Below are positions 4,257 through 24,467 of a DNA stretch of 40,668 nt, in pieces. The DNA lies in IMG/VR virus record IMGVR_UViG_3300034374_004273, positions 1 to 40,668 of that record; one strand, 5' to 3'. Source of the DNA: a virus. Under the pieces are notes generated by a model. The model searched no databases. It worked only from the letters and a program-made list of their open reading frames with translations, and was not told where the DNA came from. The position numbers and the translations under genes were made by a program. The first letter of the stretch is position 1, and each line of letters starts with the position of its first letter.

Positions 4257-4284
4257 GTTTAGAATCAAAGACTTACAAGGCTAA

Positions 4285-4313
4285 TTGACAAACGTATTAC
4301 GTAAGAGTAGAAT
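4285..4313 (+). promoter_or_regulatory. Near-consensus sigma70 promoter
   Basis: TTGACA (4285-4290), 17-base spacer, TAGAAT (4308-4313). It lies 54 bases upstream of the 196-aa gene. The spacer contains the palindrome ACGTATTACGT (4292-4302), sitting exactly between the boxes like an operator. It is one of the strongest promoter matches in the window, so strong early expression by host polymerase is expected. Confidence 0.8.
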
Positions 4314-4366: not shown

Positions 4367-4957
4367 ATGTCTACTAACGACAAGGCGGTAAAGGAAGTTG
4401 CAATACCAGTAGTTAATTTTGCTATATTCGGTGAAGGTTATGCGGAATCCATTAAGGATTATGTTGCTCAAGAAACTCAGGGCAATGCCGTATTGGCCAA
4501 GACCCGTCGTGCTGGTGCTTTGTTACTCAATGAAATGCACAAGTATTGCGAGCAAGTCGTTGAATTTGAAGGTATTGACGGCAAGGTTGAGAAGCGTATC
4601 AACGGATGGTGGAACTTCCAATTGACTGATACCGGCCCAAATGCCGATAAGGTTAACCAAGTATCCCGATTCATTGTAGCTAGCTTAAAAGCTGCAGGCC
4701 ATTCGAACCCTTCTCAAGCACTCAGAGATCTAAAAAATTACGCCAAAGAAATCGCAAATGGCGGGAAGAAATCTGAGAAAAGAGAATCATTGAAATCTAC
4801 CAATGATTTCCTCGAAGGCCACTTGGTCGCTTGCTACAAAAAACTGGTTCGAACCACTGGCGAAAACCCCGCCGCATTCGATACCTTCCGCGACCGGCTA
4901 GCTAAGTTCCTACGCGATGAACTAAAAGTCGCCGCGAACAAGCTTCGAGTCGAGTAA
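4367..4957 (+). CDS. Conserved-looking hypothetical protein, monocistronic
   Basis: 196-aa soluble, mixed-charge protein of unrecognised family (starts MSTNDKAVKEVAIPVV). It is predicted mostly helical, with a basic C-terminal region (AKFLRDELKVAANKLRVE) and a lysine/serine-rich central stretch (GGKKSEKRESLKS). AAAGG precedes the ATG. It has its own near-consensus promoter at 4285 and a strong intrinsic terminator at 4972, unlike any other gene here, and adjoins the repeat-rich control region. That arrangement suits an abundant early product such as a regulator, origin-binding or host-takeover protein; this is inference from context only. Confidence 0.75.
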   Translation: MSTNDKAVKEVAIPVVNFAIFGEGYAESIKDYVAQETQGNAVLAKTRRAGALLLNEMHKYCEQVVEFEGIDGKVEKRINGWWNFQLTDTGPNADKVNQVSRFIVASLKAAGHSNPSQALRDLKNYAKEIANGGKKSEKRESLKSTNDFLEGHLVACYKKLVRTTGENPAAFDTFRDRLAKFLRDELKVAANKLRVE

Positions 4958-4971
4958 CACCCGCACCACTC

Positions 4972-4999
4972 GCCCCAGCTTCGGCTGGGGCATTTTTTT
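4972..4999 (+). terminator. Intrinsic terminator with UUCG loop
   Basis: Stem GCCCCAGC / GCTGGGGC (4972-4979 and 4984-4991) closed by a TTCG tetraloop, followed by A and seven Ts (4993-4999). It starts 14 bases after the stop codon of the 196-aa gene. This is a textbook rho-independent terminator isolating that gene from the rightward operon. Confidence 0.93.
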
Positions 5000-5005
5000 G
5001 TCCGC

Positions 5006-5092
5006 TGATGATAGTGATGAGGGAGGGGGGTGGATAATGTTAGAAAACGAAAAAGGATGCGGGTCGATGATGATAGTGATCAGGGAGGTGGG
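5006..5092 (+). repeat. 25-bp imperfect direct repeat pair
   Basis: TGATGATAGTGAT followed by a G-rich tail occurs at 5006-5030 and 5068-5092, with 2 mismatches over 25 bases (G/C after GTGAT and one base in the G-run). It flanks the first iteron at 5035. Confidence 0.6.
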
Positions 5093-5102
5093 TGTAGTTT
5101 AA

Positions 5103-5131
5103 GTTCAACGTAAATAATAATCCTTATATCC
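5103..5131 (+). repeat. 29-bp leader element, copy B
   Basis: GTTCAACGTAAATAATAA followed by TCCTTATATCC. It sits just before the dense iteron cluster at 5141-5205 rather than directly before a gene. Confidence 0.7.
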
Positions 5132-5543
5132 AATTATCCATAATGTTAGAAAAGTTTGTAATGTTAGAAAGTAATGTTAGAAAATTTTGGGGTAATGTTA
5201 GAAAATATTTTTCGTGTTTCGTTTATAATCAAGTACTTACCTTGTAATGTTAGAATGTTCAGTTTTTTTTAAGGTATAGAATTAAAAATACCTCTTAAAG
5301 CGAGGCTTTCGGCAAGTGTAAGTAGTGGCAATGTGCAAAGTCGCGTGGGGCTCTCTATACTATATTAATTATCTAACATTCTAACATTACATTAAAAATT
5401 AACGCACAAACCGCATTCTAAAGCCATTCATAATGTTAGAAAACTAATGTTAGAAAACTTACAAAAAACTTAACATTCTAACTTTACCCGCCCAATTATT
5501 TCTAACAAAACCCCGTCTCAAGAAAGATATCCTGATGAAACAA

Positions 5544-5572
5544 TGGATTAGCGTATTACACTTTGCTATAAT
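5544..5572 (+). promoter_or_regulatory. Extended -10 promoter for the rightward operon
   Basis: TGGATT (5544-5549), 17-base spacer, TGC-TATAAT (TATAAT at 5567-5572). The region from GAAACAATGG to TATAATA is closely similar to that at 6659-6693. The spacer contains CGTATTAC at the same offset as in the promoter at 4285. It lies 93 bases upstream of the gene at 5665. Confidence 0.65.
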
Positions 5573-5615
5573 ATAAGGGTAGGCTAGAAAAACGAGTTAC
5601 TTTTCTAACATTACA

Positions 5616-5644
5616 TTTCAACGTAAATAATAATTCTTATATCC
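5616..5644 (+). repeat. 29-bp leader element, copy C
   Basis: TTTCAACGTAAATAATAA followed by TTCTTATATCC. It lies 43 bases after the TATAAT box and 20 bases before the ATG at 5665, so it would be in the 5' leader of the mRNA. Confidence 0.75.
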
Positions 5645-5664
5645 AACAACACGAAGGAGCGACA

Positions 5665-5907
5665 ATGTTCAAAGATCAAGACTTACAAAAACTCTCAATA
5701 CTCAAGTCTTACTTGCGCGCCAAAAATGCGCAGTCTGTAAAGTGGACTAACCCTAAAAACATGGTGCGACTGGCGAATTACCCATCCCAGCTTAACCCTA
5801 ACTCTAATATAGCCAAGTACCCGCCCAAGCACCTGACGAGTACGACAATGGATTGGCATAAATTTCTTGAGTCTGCAAACCTAACCCAGTTACGAGGTAG
5901 AAGATGA
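5665..5907 (+). CDS. Small hypothetical protein, first gene of rightward operon
   Basis: 80-aa basic protein of unrecognised family (starts MFKDQDLQKLSILKSYLRAK). A good Shine-Dalgarno, GAAGGAGCGACA, precedes the ATG. It ends with an ATGA overlap with the next gene. Its position right after promoter and leader element marks it as an early phage gene. N-terminal helix LQKLSILKSYLRA and a polar, proline-containing middle are the only notable features. Confidence 0.65.
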   Translation: MFKDQDLQKLSILKSYLRAKNAQSVKWTNPKNMVRLANYPSQLNPNSNIAKYPPKHLTSTTMDWHKFLESANLTQLRGRR

Positions 5908-11474: not shown

Positions 11475-11906
11475 ATGAAATTAGAACTAGATAGCTATGA
11501 ATTCAAATCAGAAGTTTTCCAGCCTTCACTAACCGAGTGGTACGAAGTTGAAATAGTTGCCGTTGAACTGCGAAACTCTAGGGTAAACGAATACGCCCCA
11601 GAAGGAGGAAAGCATATACATATAGTATATGAAATAGTTGATGGCCCCTATACTGGTGAGTTTTTGTATAGCAACATAACCTTACACAACCCAGCTAATC
11701 CAATACATGAAAATAGAGGGAAGCTAAACCTTAGTGCAATCTGTAAGGCTATTGGCATGAAAAAGTTGCCAGACAATACAGATATGTTACTAGATAAAGC
11801 TATCAGTATTAAAGCAAGAAGTATTGGTGCCGTGGTTGATTGGAGGCCCAGCCAGAAGTTTAGCACCAGTGGTTTTGTTAAATCTATTTTTAGTCACAAC
11901 AAATAA
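11475..11906 (+). CDS. DUF669-like phage recombination/replication protein
   Basis: 143-aa protein starting MKLELDSYEFKSE; this start is chosen because AAGGAGAAAGGG precedes it, while an upstream in-frame ATG at 11418 lacks a site. Hallmarks: WYEVEIVAVEL, the long strand HIVYEIVDGPYTGEFLY, and LNLSAICKAIGM. This pattern is typical of DUF669, a family of single-domain phage proteins found in recombination and replication modules and suspected to bind ssDNA. Here it lies upstream of VRR-NUC and polymerase genes, in keeping with that. Confidence 0.75.
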   Translation: MKLELDSYEFKSEVFQPSLTEWYEVEIVAVELRNSRVNEYAPEGGKHIHIVYEIVDGPYTGEFLYSNITLHNPANPIHENRGKLNLSAICKAIGMKKLPDNTDMLLDKAISIKARSIGAVVDWRPSQKFSTSGFVKSIFSHNK

Positions 11907-11917
11907 AAGGAGGTTTT

Positions 11918-12106
11918 ATGGTTAAGAAAATAATAGCTGTTTTATTGATTTCACTACCACTTACCGCTCTTGCTGGTAGGTTGTTGAAGTGCGAAGGGGT
12001 GTCTACTGCGCAGGGTTACAAGTACGTTGGTACATACTGTATGGACTATAACTGTAAATATGTTCAACGGTATGTTTTTTCTAGCTACTGCCCATATAGC
12101 ATCTAA
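11918..12106 (+). CDS. Small exported cysteine-rich protein
   Basis: 62-aa protein with a clear signal peptide (KKIIAVLLISLPLTALAG, cleavage likely after ALA). The ~43-residue mature part is rich in Cys and Tyr (CEG, TYCMDYNCKY, SSYCPY), so about four cysteines could form two disulfides in the periplasm. AAGGAGG precedes the ATG. It overlaps the nuclease gene through TAATG. A periplasmic role such as superinfection blocking is possible but unproven. Confidence 0.65.
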   Translation: MVKKIIAVLLISLPLTALAGRLLKCEGVSTAQGYKYVGTYCMDYNCKYVQRYVFSSYCPYSI

Positions 12107-12399
12107 TGGCTAGTACACCAGAGAAGAAGGTGAAGGAAAAGGTAGTTAAGATACTCAAAGAGTTTGGGGTCTACTACTTTTTCCCAGCTACTTACGGTAT
12201 GGGTAGGAGTGGAGTACCTGATATCGTGTGTTGTTTCAATGGAAACTTTTTTGCTATTGAATGTAAGGCTGGTAACAACAAACCCACAGCTTTACAGGAA
12301 CGAGAGTTGGGTTTGATAAGAGAAGCAAAGGGTACTGCGCTAGTTGTGAATGAGGACAACATAGATCATGTACGTATTTTAATAGAGGAAATGATATAG
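12106..12399 (+). CDS. VRR-NUC domain nuclease
   Basis: 97-aa single-domain nuclease of the PD-(D/E)xK superfamily. GRSGVPDIV (D39), then AIECKAG (E52, K54) and Q64 in TALQERE give the VRR-NUC catalytic layout. Free-standing phage VRR-NUC proteins cleave branched DNA and are thought to act as junction resolvases in replication and recombination. Length is right for the stand-alone form. It is located between DUF669-like and polymerase genes. Confidence 0.9.
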   Translation: MASTPEKKVKEKVVKILKEFGVYYFFPATYGMGRSGVPDIVCCFNGNFFAIECKAGNNKPTALQERELGLIREAKGTALVVNEDNIDHVRILIEEMI

Positions 12400-12407
12400 G
12401 AGTCTGT

Positions 12408-13616: not shown

Positions 13617-13736
13617 ATGATAGTAAAGACGTGGAAGATAAAACGTGTGATTGGTAACTGGATGTATTGGTGGGTTACTCAATCTTTTTATGCAAGATGG
13701 ATTAGCAAATACCGTAGGTGGAAACGTAATAGATGA
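13617..13736 (+). CDS. 39-aa basic, aromatic peptide
   Basis: Fills the gap between two genes: ATG at 13617 two bases after the previous stop, TGA at 13734-13736 overlapping the polymerase start (ATGA). The peptide is Trp/Arg/Lys-rich (about six Trp, eleven Lys/Arg), beginning MIVKTWKIKRVIGNW. It lacks a clear Shine-Dalgarno, so translation would rely on coupling. The perfect fit between neighbours is the main support. It could be a membrane-active or nucleic-acid-binding peptide, or just a coupling device for the polymerase. Confidence 0.5.
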   Translation: MIVKTWKIKRVIGNWMYWWVTQSFYARWISKYRRWKRNR

Positions 13737-15568
13737 AATTAATAACACTAGATTTTGAGACGTATTACGACAAGAAGTATTCGCTGTCGAAACTAACCAC
13801 CGAAGAATACATACGCCACCCTGAGTTTGAAGTTATCGGCGTAGCTGTAAAACAAGTATCTTCGGGCCCAGGAGAAACAAAATGGTTTAGTGGTACTAAA
13901 GAACGTACAAAAGATTTCCTAGACCAATTTGATTGGGATAACTGCTTAGTTGTAGCTCACAATGCTATGTTTGATATGGCTATTCTATCTTGGATATTTG
14001 GTATCAAACCAAAGAGAGTAGCTGACACGCTGTCGATGTCTAGGGCCATTCACAGTATCGAAGTAGGTGGAAGTCTTAAAGCGCTCGCTGAATATTATCA
14101 GTTGGGTGAAAAAGGTACGGAAGTTGTCAATGCGCTAGGCAAACGTCGTATAGATTTTACTGACGAAGAGCTTGCTAGGTATGCTGAGTATTGCATAAAC
14201 GATGTCGAACTGACTGAAGATTTATTCAAAGTACTGCTACCTAAACTAAACATGCTCGAACTCAAGTTAATAGACCTGACTATAAAGATGTTCAGCGAAC
14301 CCGCGCTGGAGTTGGATATTGATGTGCTTGAGGCTCATTTGCAAGGGGTACAAAAGAAGAAGCAAGACCTCATGGCTAAGATCGAAGCCGATAAGAAAGT
14401 CATAATGAGTAACCCAAAGTTTGCGGAGTTGCTCCAAAATAATGGGATTATTCCCCCCAAGAAAATTAGTCCTACTACTGGAAAAGAAACCTACGCATTT
14501 GCTAAAACCGATGAAGAATTTAAAGCGCTGTTGGAGCATGAAAACTCTGATGTTCAAGCGCTTGTGTCGGCTAGATTAGGAGTAAAGTCCACCATTGAAG
14601 AAACCAGAACTGAACGGTTTATAAACATAGCGATGCGGGGAACTCTACCCATACCACTACGTTACTACGCGGCTCATACAGGAAGATGGGGTGGTGATGA
14701 CAAAGTTAATATGCAGAACCTTCCACGTACTTCAGCACTTAAAGATGCGATATGCGCTCCGTTCGGGTACAGGATAATTGACTGTGATTCATCCCAGATT
14801 GAGGCTAGAACTCTAGCGTGGTTGGCAGAACAGAATGATTTGGTAGACGCTTTTGATAAGGGTGAGGATGTCTACAAAATTATGGCTAGCTCAATATATG
14901 GTAAGCCGGTTGAAGAGATTACTAAAGATGAAAGGTTTGTTGGCAAAACTACAATTCTTGGTGCTGGTTATGGTATGGGGGCTAGGAAATTTCAGGCTCA
15001 GTTGAAGAACTTTGGTGTGGAACTACCAGAAGATGAGTGCCAGAGGATCATTACTGTTTATAGAGAACAGTATCAGTGGATACCGCAGTTGTGGCGCGAT
15101 GCTGGTAAGGCACTAGAGGCTATGATGAACGACCAGACTACTGAGTTTGGTAGAAATGGACTTTTGTGTGTAGAGGGTAACAGAGGAATACGTTTACCAA
15201 ATGGACTATATATACAGTACCCCAATATACGCAAAGAACGAAACGAAGATGGTGATGCCGAGGTGGTTTATGATACACGCCGTGGCAAGATGACTGTACC
15301 TAATAGAATATATGGTGGGAAGGTTATTGAGAATGTATGTCAGGCATTGGCTCGTATCGTGATCGGTGAGCAGATGCTGGAGATAGCGAAGCGGTACAAA
15401 GTTGTAATGACTGTGCATGACGCTGTGGCTTGTATCGTACCCAAAGAAGAAGAGGAAGAAGGTAGAGCTTTTGTAGAAAAGATGATGAGGATGCGACCCA
15501 CATGGGCACAAGAGCTTCCTCTTGATTGTGAATCTGGTGTAGGTAAATCTTATGGAGACTGTAAATGA
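13733..15568 (+). CDS. polA: DNA polymerase, family A, with 3'-5' exonuclease
   Basis: 611-aa replicative polymerase. Exonuclease residues: D7 and E9 (LDFETYYDK), N77/D81 (VVAHNAMFD), Y153/D157 (YCINDVEL). Polymerase domain: HTGRWGGDDKVNMQNLPR, motif A with D352 in DCDSSQIEAR, motif B R401-K405-LGAGYG, motif C H562-D563. Two unusual points: the residue equivalent to E. coli F762 is leucine (L409), and motif C reads HDA instead of the usual HDE. No 5'-3' exonuclease domain. It is the main replication enzyme with the primase-helicase downstream. Confidence 0.95.
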   Translation: MKLITLDFETYYDKKYSLSKLTTEEYIRHPEFEVIGVAVKQVSSGPGETKWFSGTKERTKDFLDQFDWDNCLVVAHNAMFDMAILSWIFGIKPKRVADTLSMSRAIHSIEVGGSLKALAEYYQLGEKGTEVVNALGKRRIDFTDEELARYAEYCINDVELTEDLFKVLLPKLNMLELKLIDLTIKMFSEPALELDIDVLEAHLQGVQKKKQDLMAKIEADKKVIMSNPKFAELLQNNGIIPPKKISPTTGKETYAFAKTDEEFKALLEHENSDVQALVSARLGVKSTIEETRTERFINIAMRGTLPIPLRYYAAHTGRWGGDDKVNMQNLPRTSALKDAICAPFGYRIIDCDSSQIEARTLAWLAEQNDLVDAFDKGEDVYKIMASSIYGKPVEEITKDERFVGKTTILGAGYGMGARKFQAQLKNFGVELPEDECQRIITVYREQYQWIPQLWRDAGKALEAMMNDQTTEFGRNGLLCVEGNRGIRLPNGLYIQYPNIRKERNEDGDAEVVYDTRRGKMTVPNRIYGGKVIENVCQALARIVIGEQMLEIAKRYKVVMTVHDAVACIVPKEEEEEGRAFVEKMMRMRPTWAQELPLDCESGVGKSYGDCK

Positions 15569-17128: not shown

Positions 17129-17168
17129 TGACACTCTATGACACTCTATGACACTCTATGACACTCTA
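17129..17168 (+). repeat. Four perfect 10-bp tandem repeats
   Basis: TGACACTCTA is repeated four times without mismatch immediately after the glycosyltransferase stop codon, 48 bases before the -35 box at 17217. It is non-coding. The period of about one helical turn would place protein sites on one face of the DNA. Confidence 0.85.
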
Positions 17169-20509: not shown

Positions 20510-21403
20510 ATGGGAAATGTAGCAATTTTTAAAGACCAAACAGCGGTAGCCACTACCGGTAAACGGGAGCTTAGTGATCTAGCTAAATCTCTGTTGCAGA
20601 ACACCACTTCTACTAATAGAAGAATACAGACTAACACCAATGGTACGTTTAAACGAATCATAAACGGTGAAGTTGTTGGAAACGCGGCTCGTAATGAGAT
20701 CAATGTCATTATTATTAATCTCTTGCCGAAAGTATCTCGTATCTTCTACGCATCTAAGTTTGACCCTAATAAAGAAGCCACACTACCAAACTGTTGGTCA
20801 AACGAAGGCGATAGGCCAGAAGAAGCCGCAAAGGATAAACAAAGTGCCAACTGTTTGACTTGCCCCCAAAACATTAAGGGTTCAGGTGAAAATGGTAGCA
20901 AAGCATGTAAGTACCAAAGACGTATAGCAGTATTAATAGCTGGAGATCCTTCCGGTGATGTTTATCAAATGAACATACCTTCTAAATCTTTGTTTGGTAA
21001 GGGTGTAGGTAATTCACATCCATTTGAGTCTTACTGGAAATACCTAGTGGCTAACCATGAATCTATAGATAACGTGGTTACTAATATCTCATTTGATTCT
21101 AATGCGGATACAATGGAACTTATCTTTACGCCGATGAGAAACATTAGTGATGAAGAGTATGAGCAAGTTCAAGCCGCTCGAGAAAAACCAGAAACAAAAA
21201 TGTATACCGTTATTACCGTAGCACAAACAGACGGTGTAAAGAAACAACCTAAACCGCAAGCGACGATTGAACGTGCTGACGAGCCGGAAGAAGAGGAAGT
21301 AGAAACAGAACCTAAAGTTCGCCAAACCAAGAAAGCAACTGAAGAGACTCCTAAACCCAAAAAGGATGCCGCCGCTTTAGTTGACGACTGGTTGAGCGAA
21401 TAA
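20510..21403 (+). CDS. Candidate phage single-stranded DNA-binding protein
   Basis: 297-aa protein. The central region has cysteines in LPNCWS, NCLTCPQN and KACKYQRR that look like a zinc site within an OB-type core. The C-terminus is a long acidic/lysine linker (EPEEEEVETEP) ending in DDWLSE, an acidic tip typical of SSBs that recruits partner enzymes. T4 gp32-like proteins combine a zinc site and acidic tail in the same way. It sits in the replication operon between a coiled-coil protein and primase-helicase. The function is inferred from architecture. Confidence 0.65.
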   Translation: MGNVAIFKDQTAVATTGKRELSDLAKSLLQNTTSTNRRIQTNTNGTFKRIINGEVVGNAARNEINVIIINLLPKVSRIFYASKFDPNKEATLPNCWSNEGDRPEEAAKDKQSANCLTCPQNIKGSGENGSKACKYQRRIAVLIAGDPSGDVYQMNIPSKSLFGKGVGNSHPFESYWKYLVANHESIDNVVTNISFDSNADTMELIFTPMRNISDEEYEQVQAAREKPETKMYTVITVAQTDGVKKQPKPQATIERADEPEEEEVETEPKVRQTKKATEETPKPKKDAAALVDDWLSE

Positions 21404-21633
21404 TGGGATACGGTTACAGCATACGTTTAATAGATCTAAATAAAAAAGCTGACAAGCAATCGCTAGGAGTACGCCTCGGTAAACTGTGTATAAAAAATAA
21501 TATACCAGTAGCCGAGGTAGCTACTAGTTTTGGGGTTAGTAGGCAAACCATTTACAACTGGTTTATTGGGGCTACTTTTCCACAACCTGCTTTTGAAGAA
21601 TCTATAAACGAATTTATTAACACATTAAAGTAA
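21403..21633 (+). CDS. Helix-turn-helix DNA-binding protein
   Basis: 76-aa protein with an HTH at about residues 35-55 (VAEVATSFGVSRQTIYNWF), the pattern of Cro/CI or transposase-type HTH domains. It is one domain only, so likely a small repressor, activator or origin-binding factor. It overlaps the SSB-like gene by TAATG. It is a candidate for binding the shared promoter palindrome or the iteron repeats, which is inference. Confidence 0.8.
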   Translation: MGYGYSIRLIDLNKKADKQSLGVRLGKLCIKNNIPVAEVATSFGVSRQTIYNWFIGATFPQPAFEESINEFINTLK

Positions 21634-21644
21634 GAGAGCGACGC

Positions 21645-24467
21645 ATGGATCTACTTAATACAGTACAGCCGTCCACTGGGTGGTTTTGCGTATTAGGTTT
21701 AAAAGGAGACGAGCAAAAACAGTTTTTAGTTGAGACACGGGGTGAAGTAGATGAGATAGCTAGAGACCTTGTTGAGAAAAACTGGAATGTGTTTTTTGCA
21801 GTAGCCAAGTTTGCTACAGGAGAGAATAGGAGAAAGGATAACGTACAAGCACTAAAAGCTTTTTGGGTTGATATTGACTGTGGTGAAAACAAAGCTATAG
21901 TTAACGAGACAACTGGTAGACCGAATGGTTATCTAGACCAAGCTGTTGGACGAAAAGCACTGAGTGACTTCTGCGAAGATGTAGGACTGCCTGATCCTAT
22001 AGTAGTAAATTCTGGACGCGGTATACACGCATACTGGCCTTTAACCGAAGAAATAACTAGACAGGAATGGGAACCTGTCGCTAAGAGGTTAAAAGATGTT
22101 TGTGTTACCCGTAACTTTTATGCCGATAGCGCATGCACTACAGACGCGGCAAGGGTTCTTAGAATACCTGGAACTTTTAACTTTAAGGATATTCCACCTA
22201 AAGAAGTAAAGGTAATAAGAGAAGCAGAACCAGTAGACTTCGAGCAGTTTAAAAAGATACTGGGCGTAAAAACGTTTGACCAAGTAGCACCAGAAAGAGA
22301 GTTATCTGAGCTAACTAAATCATTGATGGCTAATAATGCGTTTAGTTTCCACAAGATAATGATTAAAGGTGAAAACGGTTGTCAGCAGTTATTAAGCTGT
22401 TTTAAAGAACGTGCGACTCTTTCGGAGCCTAGATGGTTTAATGCTTTATCTATTGCTAAGTTTTGTGAAGATAAAGATGTAGCTATTCACAAGCTGTCTA
22501 AAGACCACCCCGATTATGATCCTGCTACCACAGAGGAGAAGATCGAGCATATCAAAGGGCCACATGGTTGCGCTGAGTTTGAGAAGCATAACTCTGGTGG
22601 GTGTCAAGGTTGTCCACACAAAGGCGCAATTAAAAGCCCAATACTGCTCGGCAAGGAAATTCTAAGAGCAGAGACAGATGAAGTAACTATTGAATCAGAG
22701 CTTGAAGATGAGCCAGCAGAAGTAGTAAAAATACCTCCATACCCAAGCCCTTATTTCAGGGGTAAAAATGGTGGTGTTTATCGTGAGGTAGTTTCAGACG
22801 ATGGAGAGATATTAGAACCAGTCTTAATATACGAGCACGATTTGTATGTTATGAAACGTATGCACGATAGGGAGTTAGGCGACGTCGTTTTAATGAAAGT
22901 GCATCTACCTAGAGATGGCATAAGAGAATTTGTTGTGCCTAATACTCTTGTACAAGACCCTGAAAAACTTAGGCCAGAGTTATCTAAATATGGAATCCTA
23001 GCGGATACAAAGAAACGATTTGAGCCTATTGGAAACTATGTTCTTAAAAGCTTGAAGGAGCTTCAAACTAAAAAGAAAGCGGAGATTATGCGTAGTCAAT
23101 TTGGTTGGGCTGACCATAACAGCAAGTTTATTATTGGGGATAGAGAGATATCTGCAGATGGGATATATTTTAGCCCCCCGTCTAAAGCTACCAAAGAAAC
23201 AGCCGAGTATATGCAAAAACATGGGACGCTAGAAGGTTGGAAAGAAGTGTTCTCTACATATGGCAGAGAAGGTCTAGAGCCCCATGCGTTCGCTGCGTTG
23301 ACTGCTTTTGGGTCACCACTTTTAAAATTTACAGGTCAAAATGGTGCGGCTATCAACGTAATCCACCCAGACTCAGGGACTGGTAAGTCTACTATCTTAT
23401 ATATGATTAACAGCGTATATGGGCACCCAAAAGAACTATGTGGAAAGTGGAAGGATACTGGTAATTCAGTATTCGCTAAATTGGGTATATGGAACTGTTT
23501 GCCATACACTATTGATGAAATTACCAATATGCCAGCGGCTTTGTTCTCGGATTATATTTACGGTATAACGCAAGGTAAGGGCAAAGACAGATTAACTGCT
23601 AACTCTGAGTTACGTTCGAATATAGCTAGGTGGGCTACTACAGGAGTATTCTCCTCTAACTCTTCAGCGACTGAAAAAATGCAGAAAGTAAAAAACAACC
23701 CCGCTGGTGAGCTTGCTCGTCTCATAGAATACACAGTTGGATATAACAAAGTGGTAAGCCTTGAAGAAGGTAAAGAGCTTTTTGACCGTAAGTTATTTGA
23801 TAACTGGGGGCACGCTGGCGATATTTATATGCAGTATCTTGTAAGTAATTTAGAAGAAGTTAGAGGACGTCTAGTTGGTGTACAAACTAAGATAGACAGA
23901 GAACTAAATCTAACACCTAAAGAACGCTATTGGTCAGCCGTAGTAGCTAGTAATATTACCGGTGGGATGTTTGCAAAACGTTTAGGTCTTATAGACTGGG
24001 ATCTACAACGGATTTATAAATGGGCCGCAGATTTAATTCAAGACCTAAAGCAGAATGTAAAACCTCCTGCTACTAGTGTTACTACAATATTAGGGGACTA
24101 CATGAACCGGCATATACCTAATACTTTGGTAATCAATGATGGAGTTGATTTGAGAACTAACAAACCAGCGCTACCCCAGCATGAACCTACTAGAGAGTTA
24201 TATATTCGTGTTGAACCTGATACGAAGCAGATATACCTAACCGCAAAACACTTTAAAAATGATTGTGTAGAAGGGCAAATACACTATAAAGAAGTCATGA
24301 GCGAACTTAAAAAGAAAGGTATATTGGTGAATTCTTTGAACAAGAGGCTTTCAAAAGGTATGAAGGTTAATACCTTTCCTGTTCATACTTTACAACTAAA
24401 TGCGGCGCATCCAGAACTAGAAGAGTTAATAAAGCATGGAGATAGAGAAGGTCAATTACCAAATTGA
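21645..24467 (+). CDS. Primase-helicase with DUF927-type ATPase
   Basis: 940-aa protein. The N-terminal ~230 residues look like an archaeo-eukaryotic-type primase domain: FWVDIDCGENK (metal-binding D-x-D), VVNSGRGIHAYWPL and AARVLRIPGTFNFKD. A cysteine cluster C309/C320/C323 (CAEFE..., GGCQGCPHKG) follows and may bind zinc. The C-terminal ATPase has Walker A HPDSGTGKST (574-583) and Walker B IDE (D624/E625), as in DUF927 helicase-like domains. It is expected to prime and unwind for PolA. GAGAGCGACGC precedes the ATG. Confidence 0.9.
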   Translation: MDLLNTVQPSTGWFCVLGLKGDEQKQFLVETRGEVDEIARDLVEKNWNVFFAVAKFATGENRRKDNVQALKAFWVDIDCGENKAIVNETTGRPNGYLDQAVGRKALSDFCEDVGLPDPIVVNSGRGIHAYWPLTEEITRQEWEPVAKRLKDVCVTRNFYADSACTTDAARVLRIPGTFNFKDIPPKEVKVIREAEPVDFEQFKKILGVKTFDQVAPERELSELTKSLMANNAFSFHKIMIKGENGCQQLLSCFKERATLSEPRWFNALSIAKFCEDKDVAIHKLSKDHPDYDPATTEEKIEHIKGPHGCAEFEKHNSGGCQGCPHKGAIKSPILLGKEILRAETDEVTIESELEDEPAEVVKIPPYPSPYFRGKNGGVYREVVSDDGEILEPVLIYEHDLYVMKRMHDRELGDVVLMKVHLPRDGIREFVVPNTLVQDPEKLRPELSKYGILADTKKRFEPIGNYVLKSLKELQTKKKAEIMRSQFGWADHNSKFIIGDREISADGIYFSPPSKATKETAEYMQKHGTLEGWKEVFSTYGREGLEPHAFAALTAFGSPLLKFTGQNGAAINVIHPDSGTGKSTILYMINSVYGHPKELCGKWKDTGNSVFAKLGIWNCLPYTIDEITNMPAALFSDYIYGITQGKGKDRLTANSELRSNIARWATTGVFSSNSSATEKMQKVKNNPAGELARLIEYTVGYNKVVSLEEGKELFDRKLFDNWGHAGDIYMQYLVSNLEEVRGRLVGVQTKIDRELNLTPKERYWSAVVASNITGGMFAKRLGLIDWDLQRIYKWAADLIQDLKQNVKPPATSVTTILGDYMNRHIPNTLVINDGVDLRTNKPALPQHEPTRELYIRVEPDTKQIYLTAKHFKNDCVEGQIHYKEVMSELKKKGILVNSLNKRLSKGMKVNTFPVHTLQLNAAHPELEELIKHGDREGQLPN

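Follow-up and report, generated by a model that had tools for sequence, protein, structure and literature searches.

The cluster of short repeated sites at 5035–5613 of the window (the whole stretch of DNA analysed, a virus record of 40,668 bases) is probably the origin from which this phage and its relatives replicate, one that, judging from its sequence features, would be iteron-like in working. The initial annotation had proposed binding sites for either an origin initiator or a master repressor, and the origin half of that proposal is now supported by comparison with relatives: the array keeps its position, has an IHF-type site, a melting-prone core and blocks of sites in opposed orientation, and is linked to the replication module. 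Exact copies of TAATGTTAGAAAA number seven (six forward, one reverse), starting at 5035, 5141, 5172, 5193, 5431, 5445 and 5601, and a scan of the whole 40.7-kb record found none outside 5035–5613. When up to three mismatches were allowed, the record contained 45 matches, 13 of them inside the array. TGTTAGA/TCTAACA occurs 12 times in the surrounding gap, whereas 1000 dinucleotide shuffles of that gap averaged 0.12 occurrences and never gave more than 3; such clustering of short sites is characteristic of iteron-type origins. The repeat array first read from the letters is thus confirmed, with its exact copies confined to this one region.

The DNA around the array is gene-free, as had been claimed, with no reading frame of at least 50 aa, but the gap is wider than the 580 bases given at first and spans 707 bp (4958–5664), with the array inside it, behind a terminator and ahead of the early replication operon. 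The sites do occur in both orientations, but they are ordered rather than random, being all forward to the left of the centre and mostly reverse to the right. A CRISPR array, which has regular repeats of one orientation with equal spacers, had been excluded on the mixed orientation and irregular spacing, and this still holds. No second array was found within the 40.7 kb of the window. Two other repeats were observed nearby: a 30-nt repeat, TTCAACGTAAATAATAATYCTTATATCCAA, is present at 5104–5133 inside the array and at 5617–5646 just before the first early gene (97% identical), and a second 30-nt repeat containing GATGATAGTGAT lies at the left edge of the gap (5003–5032 and 5065–5094, 90% identical), resembled by GATGATAGT or TGATAGTA sequences in three other loci (L053, L058 and L073).

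The rightward operon that begins at 5665 encodes an ATPase, a metallopeptidase-VWA protein, DNA polymerase A, a PD-(D/E)XK nuclease, an SNF2 helicase, the 76-aa helix-turn-helix protein (HTH76) and a DUF927 primase-helicase, and the array is linked to a complete replication module in the window (Table 1). Farther right, four exact tandem copies of TGACACTCTA with a 10-bp step (17129–17168) lie just upstream of a promoter-like TTGACT...TATAAC sequence before the RecB-like nuclease gene and are possibly a second set of regulatory sites.

Table 1. Features of the array and of the genes discussed with it, in window coordinates
Feature	Position	Strand	Basis or remark
IHF-type site AATCAAAGACTTA	4263..4275	+	exact match to WATCAANNACTTA; just upstream of the 196-aa gene promoter
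Promoter-like TTGACA-17-TAGAAT, 196-aa gene	4285..4313	+	11/12 consensus positions; inferred from sequence
Gene for 196-aa protein, candidate binder	4367..4957	+	unnamed family, left of array in relatives
Terminator-like hairpin and T run	4972..4991	+	after 196-aa gene
Left block, five forward TAATGTTAGAAA(A/G)	5035..5205	+	at 5035, 5141, 5159, 5172, 5193
Core IHF-type site AATCAAGTACTTA	5227..5239	+	exact pattern in 17/23 array gaps
Forward tandem pair TAATGTTAGAATGTTC	5245..5260	+	8-bp step
GCAAGTG box	5312..5318	+	85 bp from IHF-type site
Melting-prone stretch, candidate DNA unwinding element	5352..5401	.	rank 0.00% (rounded) among the record's 50-bp windows
Reverse tandem pair TTATCTAACATTCTAACATTA	5369..5389	-	8-bp step
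Two forward exact copies, 14 bp apart	5431..5457	+	right of core
Degenerate reverse copies	5466..5510	-	motif scan
Rightward promoter-like TGGATT-17-TATAAT, TG before second hexamer	5544..5572	+	read from sequence
Last exact copy, reversed	5601..5613	-	motif scan
First gene of rightward early operon, 80 aa	5665..5907	+	reading frame
DNA polymerase A, replication module	13733..15568	+	Pfam DNA_pol_A; relatives
76-aa HTH protein (HTH76), Cro/XRE-like model	21403..21633	+	considered as binder, disfavoured
940-aa primase-helicase (DUF927)	21645..24467	+	directly after HTH76 gene

The array contains a conserved core that was absent from the initial annotation. When the relatives were aligned by their centres, they shared an IHF-type site, a forward 8-bp tandem pair, a GCAAGTG box, an AT- or pyrimidine-rich stretch and a reverse 8-bp tandem pair, with the facing tandem pairs ∼115–130 bp apart. 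A core profile trained on six relatives (L138, L144, L145, L146, L149 and L151), with the window left out, was run on 175 loci (2.04 Mb) and matched 12 further non-duplicate loci at E <0.01, all on the expected strand: L152, L148, L083, L086, L181, L173, L069, L171, L100, L073 (duplicate L213), L157 and the window itself, at 5239–5391 with an E value of 0.0014. The same sequences read backwards as a decoy gave nothing up to E 10. The IHF-type pattern WATCAANNACTTA, which agrees with the consensus WATCAAnnnnTTR given in the available part of PMC10380432, is found at 17 places in the 18.4 kb of array gaps, in 17 of the 23 loci and at 5227–5239 in the window, compared with 14 places in 1.81 Mb elsewhere, an enrichment that is descriptive more than a test because some of the loci had served to define the pattern; after similar gaps were joined by hand, 9 of 15 groups carry it. 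In 14/23 array gaps the GCAAGTG box lies on the + strand, and in 11 phages its distance from the IHF-type site is 81–96 bp; the strand of the IHF-type site in the window and L062 is opposite to that in the other phages.

Two further properties of the core were compared over 21 phages. Left of the centre there are 118 forward and 33 reverse sites, and right of it 36 forward and 108 reverse; the sites in related phages are not independent, and with the reverse tandem pair taken as the centre some two reverse sites in each phage fall to its right by construction, so that the Fisher value for this contrast is not to be read literally. This polarity of opposed blocks is seen in 20/21 phages, the exception being L152, which is cut off by its contig. 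Among the 50-bp stretches of each locus, the least stable one around the reverse pair ranks within the top 0.16% at the median, a level that 1.8% of random spans also reach; the rank is 0.00% after rounding in 9 of the 21 loci, including the window, where it falls to sixth with 60-bp windows. AT-rich, easily opened DNA is thus present at 5352–5401, as at iteron-type origins, but noncoding DNA is often AT-rich and the melting rank is therefore not specific.

To define conservation, we took as complete each interval running from the small terminase to the ATPase/VWA gene, dropped the duplicate contig L213, entered four pieces cut from larger records whole, and called an array where a WTGTTA, WTGTTC or WTGTAA cluster was reached in its best class by at most one of 200 local shuffles. 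An array is present at the equivalent place in 19 of the 21 complete intervals, the window included, and in 0/7 control stretches to the right; L201 passes the threshold only narrowly, and no significant array was found by this comparison in the complete intervals of L053 and L166. The initial annotation had staked its reading on homologous phages carrying the repeats, and on this count they largely do. The motif itself drifts, from TGTTAG (window, L144, L145, L146, L149, L151 and L173) to TGTTAC/T (L069, L083, L086, L058 and L073), TGTTC (L100 and L185–L187) and TGTAAG (L181, L203, L211 and L064), although the layout of forward sites to the left and reversed sites to the right of the core is kept. 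With one mismatch allowed, tandem TAACATTATAACA matches 10 of 14 IMG/VR records, at a single place in each, and has no match in the other four, which belong to other motif classes or are fragments.

These comparisons drew on IMG/VR searches with the polymerase alignment and the large terminase, the best 80 loci of at least 600 stretches being taken for each; of the 600 stretches examined for the polymerase, 593 count as its relatives, and more matches exist. Replication genes similar to those of the window occur in Rhizobium phage RHph_TM3_14A and in the Pseudomonas phages KPP25 and Rollin (polymerase 34–37%). Neither RHph_TM3_14A nor Rollin contains a TGTTA cluster, which counts against a family-wide claim; in RHph_TM3_14A the corresponding place is taken by a gene-free, AT-rich gap that carries IHF-like sites. 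Searches of phage records gave no DNA relative for the array region, and 15 loci from bacterial genomes, few or none of which reach the equivalent interval, gave no core match. A query with the window ATPase alone found no relatives, and one with the 196-aa protein alone retrieved nothing but the contig L001 (IMGVR_UViG_3300006869_004128), which comes from the same phage (protein 100% identical) and ends at about window position 5015, just before the array; the array repeats may interrupt assembly, as at the end of this contig. A search of viral contigs for two near copies of TAATGTTAGAA gave 35 stretches; on inspection by eye most were coding sequence or repeats that arose by chance, many of them with a period of 30 bp, and they were therefore left out of the evidence. 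Short palindromes such as CCTAACAATTGTTAGG are repeated before genes or in gaps of L058 (977, 1106, 1686 and 1990), L053 (2381, 3099 and 3343), L073 (2945 and 3655) and L044 (17676–20958), with a sequence that differs per phage. In a Dehalococcoidia MAG labelled as a chromosome (L267, CP070693.1), a polymerase 65% identical to that of the phage has only one other recognised window gene nearby, a possible misassembly or transfer.

The leading candidate for the protein that binds the array is the 196-aa protein encoded beside it. In an iterative search, 17 of 32 phages, among them the window, had a member of its family immediately to the left of the array; some of the 32 may be wrongly assigned, since the longest ATG reading frame was chosen there. 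The family spans the TGTTAG, TGTTAC/T and TGTAAG classes, and the four TGTTC phages (L100 and L185–L187) have a different protein family in this place. No relatives of the 196-aa protein were found in Pfam, PHROG or PDB, and its structure model is poor (pLDDT 50.6). HTH76, named earlier as one of three proteins to try as binder, is predicted to be Cro/XRE-like, with weak structure matches that say only this much, and a homologue is present in 13/20 larger records, the remainder of which include fragments. No match was found in the 66-kb record G014, although this has a clear TGTAAGAA array, nor by profile search in KPP25; HTH76 is therefore disfavoured as a universal binder, as two array-carrying phages are without a detectable homologue. 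No Rep-type initiator was recognised in the window, and no RepA_N initiator among 20 window proteins compared with Pfam. It is possible, but doubtful, that the phages share a new initiator system, in which an early, origin-adjacent 196-aa family would recognise a drifting TGTT(A/C)/TGTAAG site in facing blocks joined by IHF over the shared core, with protein and site evolving together throughout a large uncultured phage clade.

The array could instead be a set of operators through which a Cro-like or other phage regulator controls the rightward early promoter, with the AT-rich DNA and the IHF-type site serving that promoter. We consider this unlikely. A promoter-like sequence does lie among the right-hand sites, a few of which flank it (5544–5572; missing from the program's promoter list because its first hexamer fits only 3/6), strong promoter-like sequences stand at the right end of the array in L083, L100 and L073, another IHF-type site is found at the promoter of the 196-aa gene, and HTH76 is of the appropriate Cro/XRE-like type. 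However, most sites and the core are 100–500 bp upstream of the promoter, beyond a repressor's need, and HTH76 was not found in two array-bearing phages. Operators would also leave unexplained the melting-prone stretch, the facing tandem pairs and the GCAAGTG box at its kept distances. Of the master repressor first proposed, a role at the rightward promoter is possible, but not an account of the core, and an array that acts as an origin possibly also tunes the early promoter.

Further evidence comes from KPP25, where TGTTACGA/TCGTGACA sites run in both orientations through a gene-free gap of 677 bp that also contains an AT-rich stretch. It has a second array at 58.26–58.54 kb, in which the first three forward positions recur with the same internal distances; the two arrays are homologous and have AT-rich stretches, and their cores are 80% identical over 159 bp. 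Of the 22 genome occurrences of TGTYACGA, 21 are within the two arrays; the TGTTA count by itself fails to single out KPP25, as 34/100 shuffles reach it. The record (NC_024123) is labelled circular and carries a direct terminal repeat of 426 bp (1–426 and 63688–64113, 99.8% identical). The large terminase of KPP25 is only 29% identical to that of the window, its packaging module being distant, and its two arrays favour an association with the replication module over a packaging site or a lone operator.

This bears on a packaging site, pac or cosB-like, at which the small terminase would bind the repeats to start packaging. The small and large terminase genes do lie 2–4 kb left of the array, and repeats are combined with an IHF site in lambda cosB as well. 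The packaging genes of the window are like those of DSL-LC04, 023Pt_psg01, HTVC023P, HTVC027P and Planktothrix phage Pag-Yong1 (large terminase 49–56%), and Pag-Yong1 (L051) has TGTCATAC repeats in both directions at 11890–12405, in a gap between divergent operons near its terminase genes; these are perhaps an unrelated array of the same kind. The other four packaging relatives, however, have neither a core match nor a TGTTA cluster in the approximately half of each record examined, and the motif drifts while the small terminase stays 55–80% identical in many relatives. The array therefore does not track the packaging module, given also its presence in KPP25, and we find this explanation very unlikely. 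A centromere-like partition site, or another nucleoprotein assembly that serves DNA maintenance instead of initiation, is highly improbable. Repeated sites for a single protein in gene-free DNA would suit any such assembly, but the 20 window proteins compared with Pfam included no named ParA/ParM-type partner, and neither the melting element nor the linkage with the replication operon would be explained.

If the array is a replication origin, as we favour, an early phage protein, perhaps the 196-aa protein encoded beside the array, would load on the opposed blocks, and host IHF would bend the DNA and bring the two blocks close. Strain from the bending would open the AT-rich stretch, the phage primase-helicase and polymerase would then enter, and forks would depart in both directions. 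The right-hand sites may in addition let the binder tune the early promoter. GC skew, proposed at the outset as a check, changes direction close to the gap in the window, KPP25 and RHph_TM3_14A, which speaks for an origin, but the turn is also explicable by gene strand and its sign is opposite in KPP25.

Comparison with known origins shows partial likeness to several. Phage P4 requires two separate arrays, ori1 and crr, with sites repeated in both orientations; sites in both orientations are found here too, and two arrays in KPP25, but the window has no second array in its 40.7 kb, and the P4 motif and alpha protein are presumably unlike those here. The plasmid iteron origins of P1, F, RK2, pSC101 and R6K, as described in the available part of PMC5043065, likewise place short repeated sites beside an AT-rich stretch, and in several of them IHF or HU aids opening. 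Their repeats are mostly direct and in helical phase, however, whereas those of the window are irregularly spaced in two facing blocks; as the sites are neither direct nor phased, the array departs from the classical plasmid iteron form. The same part of PMC5043065 describes ori lambda, where iterons beside an AT-rich region are opened by a phage initiator. The four lambda iterons lie inside the initiator gene O, unlike the ∼13 sites in a noncoding gap of the window. The PLE satellite origin is also a phage-related origin with repeats in a noncoding region (PMC7145576, in the part available), but uses a RepA_N initiator, a type not recognised in the 20 window proteins. In pRN1, the gene for a small DNA-binding protein (orf56) directly precedes that for a primase-helicase (orf904), as HTH76 precedes the 940-aa protein; pRN1 differs in having no recognisable iterons and a putative origin at a stem-loop downstream of orf904, according to the portion of PMC4234260 available. 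Literature searches found no published description of an origin such as this one: by term search of the accessible text, the Kochitakasuvirus CRPAP1904 paper (PMC13340246) contains neither "origin" nor "promoter", and the DSL-LC04 paper (PMC10611076) has "origin" once and "repeat" never.

Hardly any uncultured phages have a known replication origin, and the array offers a testable candidate, with a fixed layout and a drifting site. The clade concerned includes hundreds of polymerase relatives in IMG/VR as well as the culturable Pseudomonas phage KPP25, whose two arrays predict two origins, or an origin and a helper site. Finally, the analysis flags an unannotated 196-aa protein family as a possible initiator.
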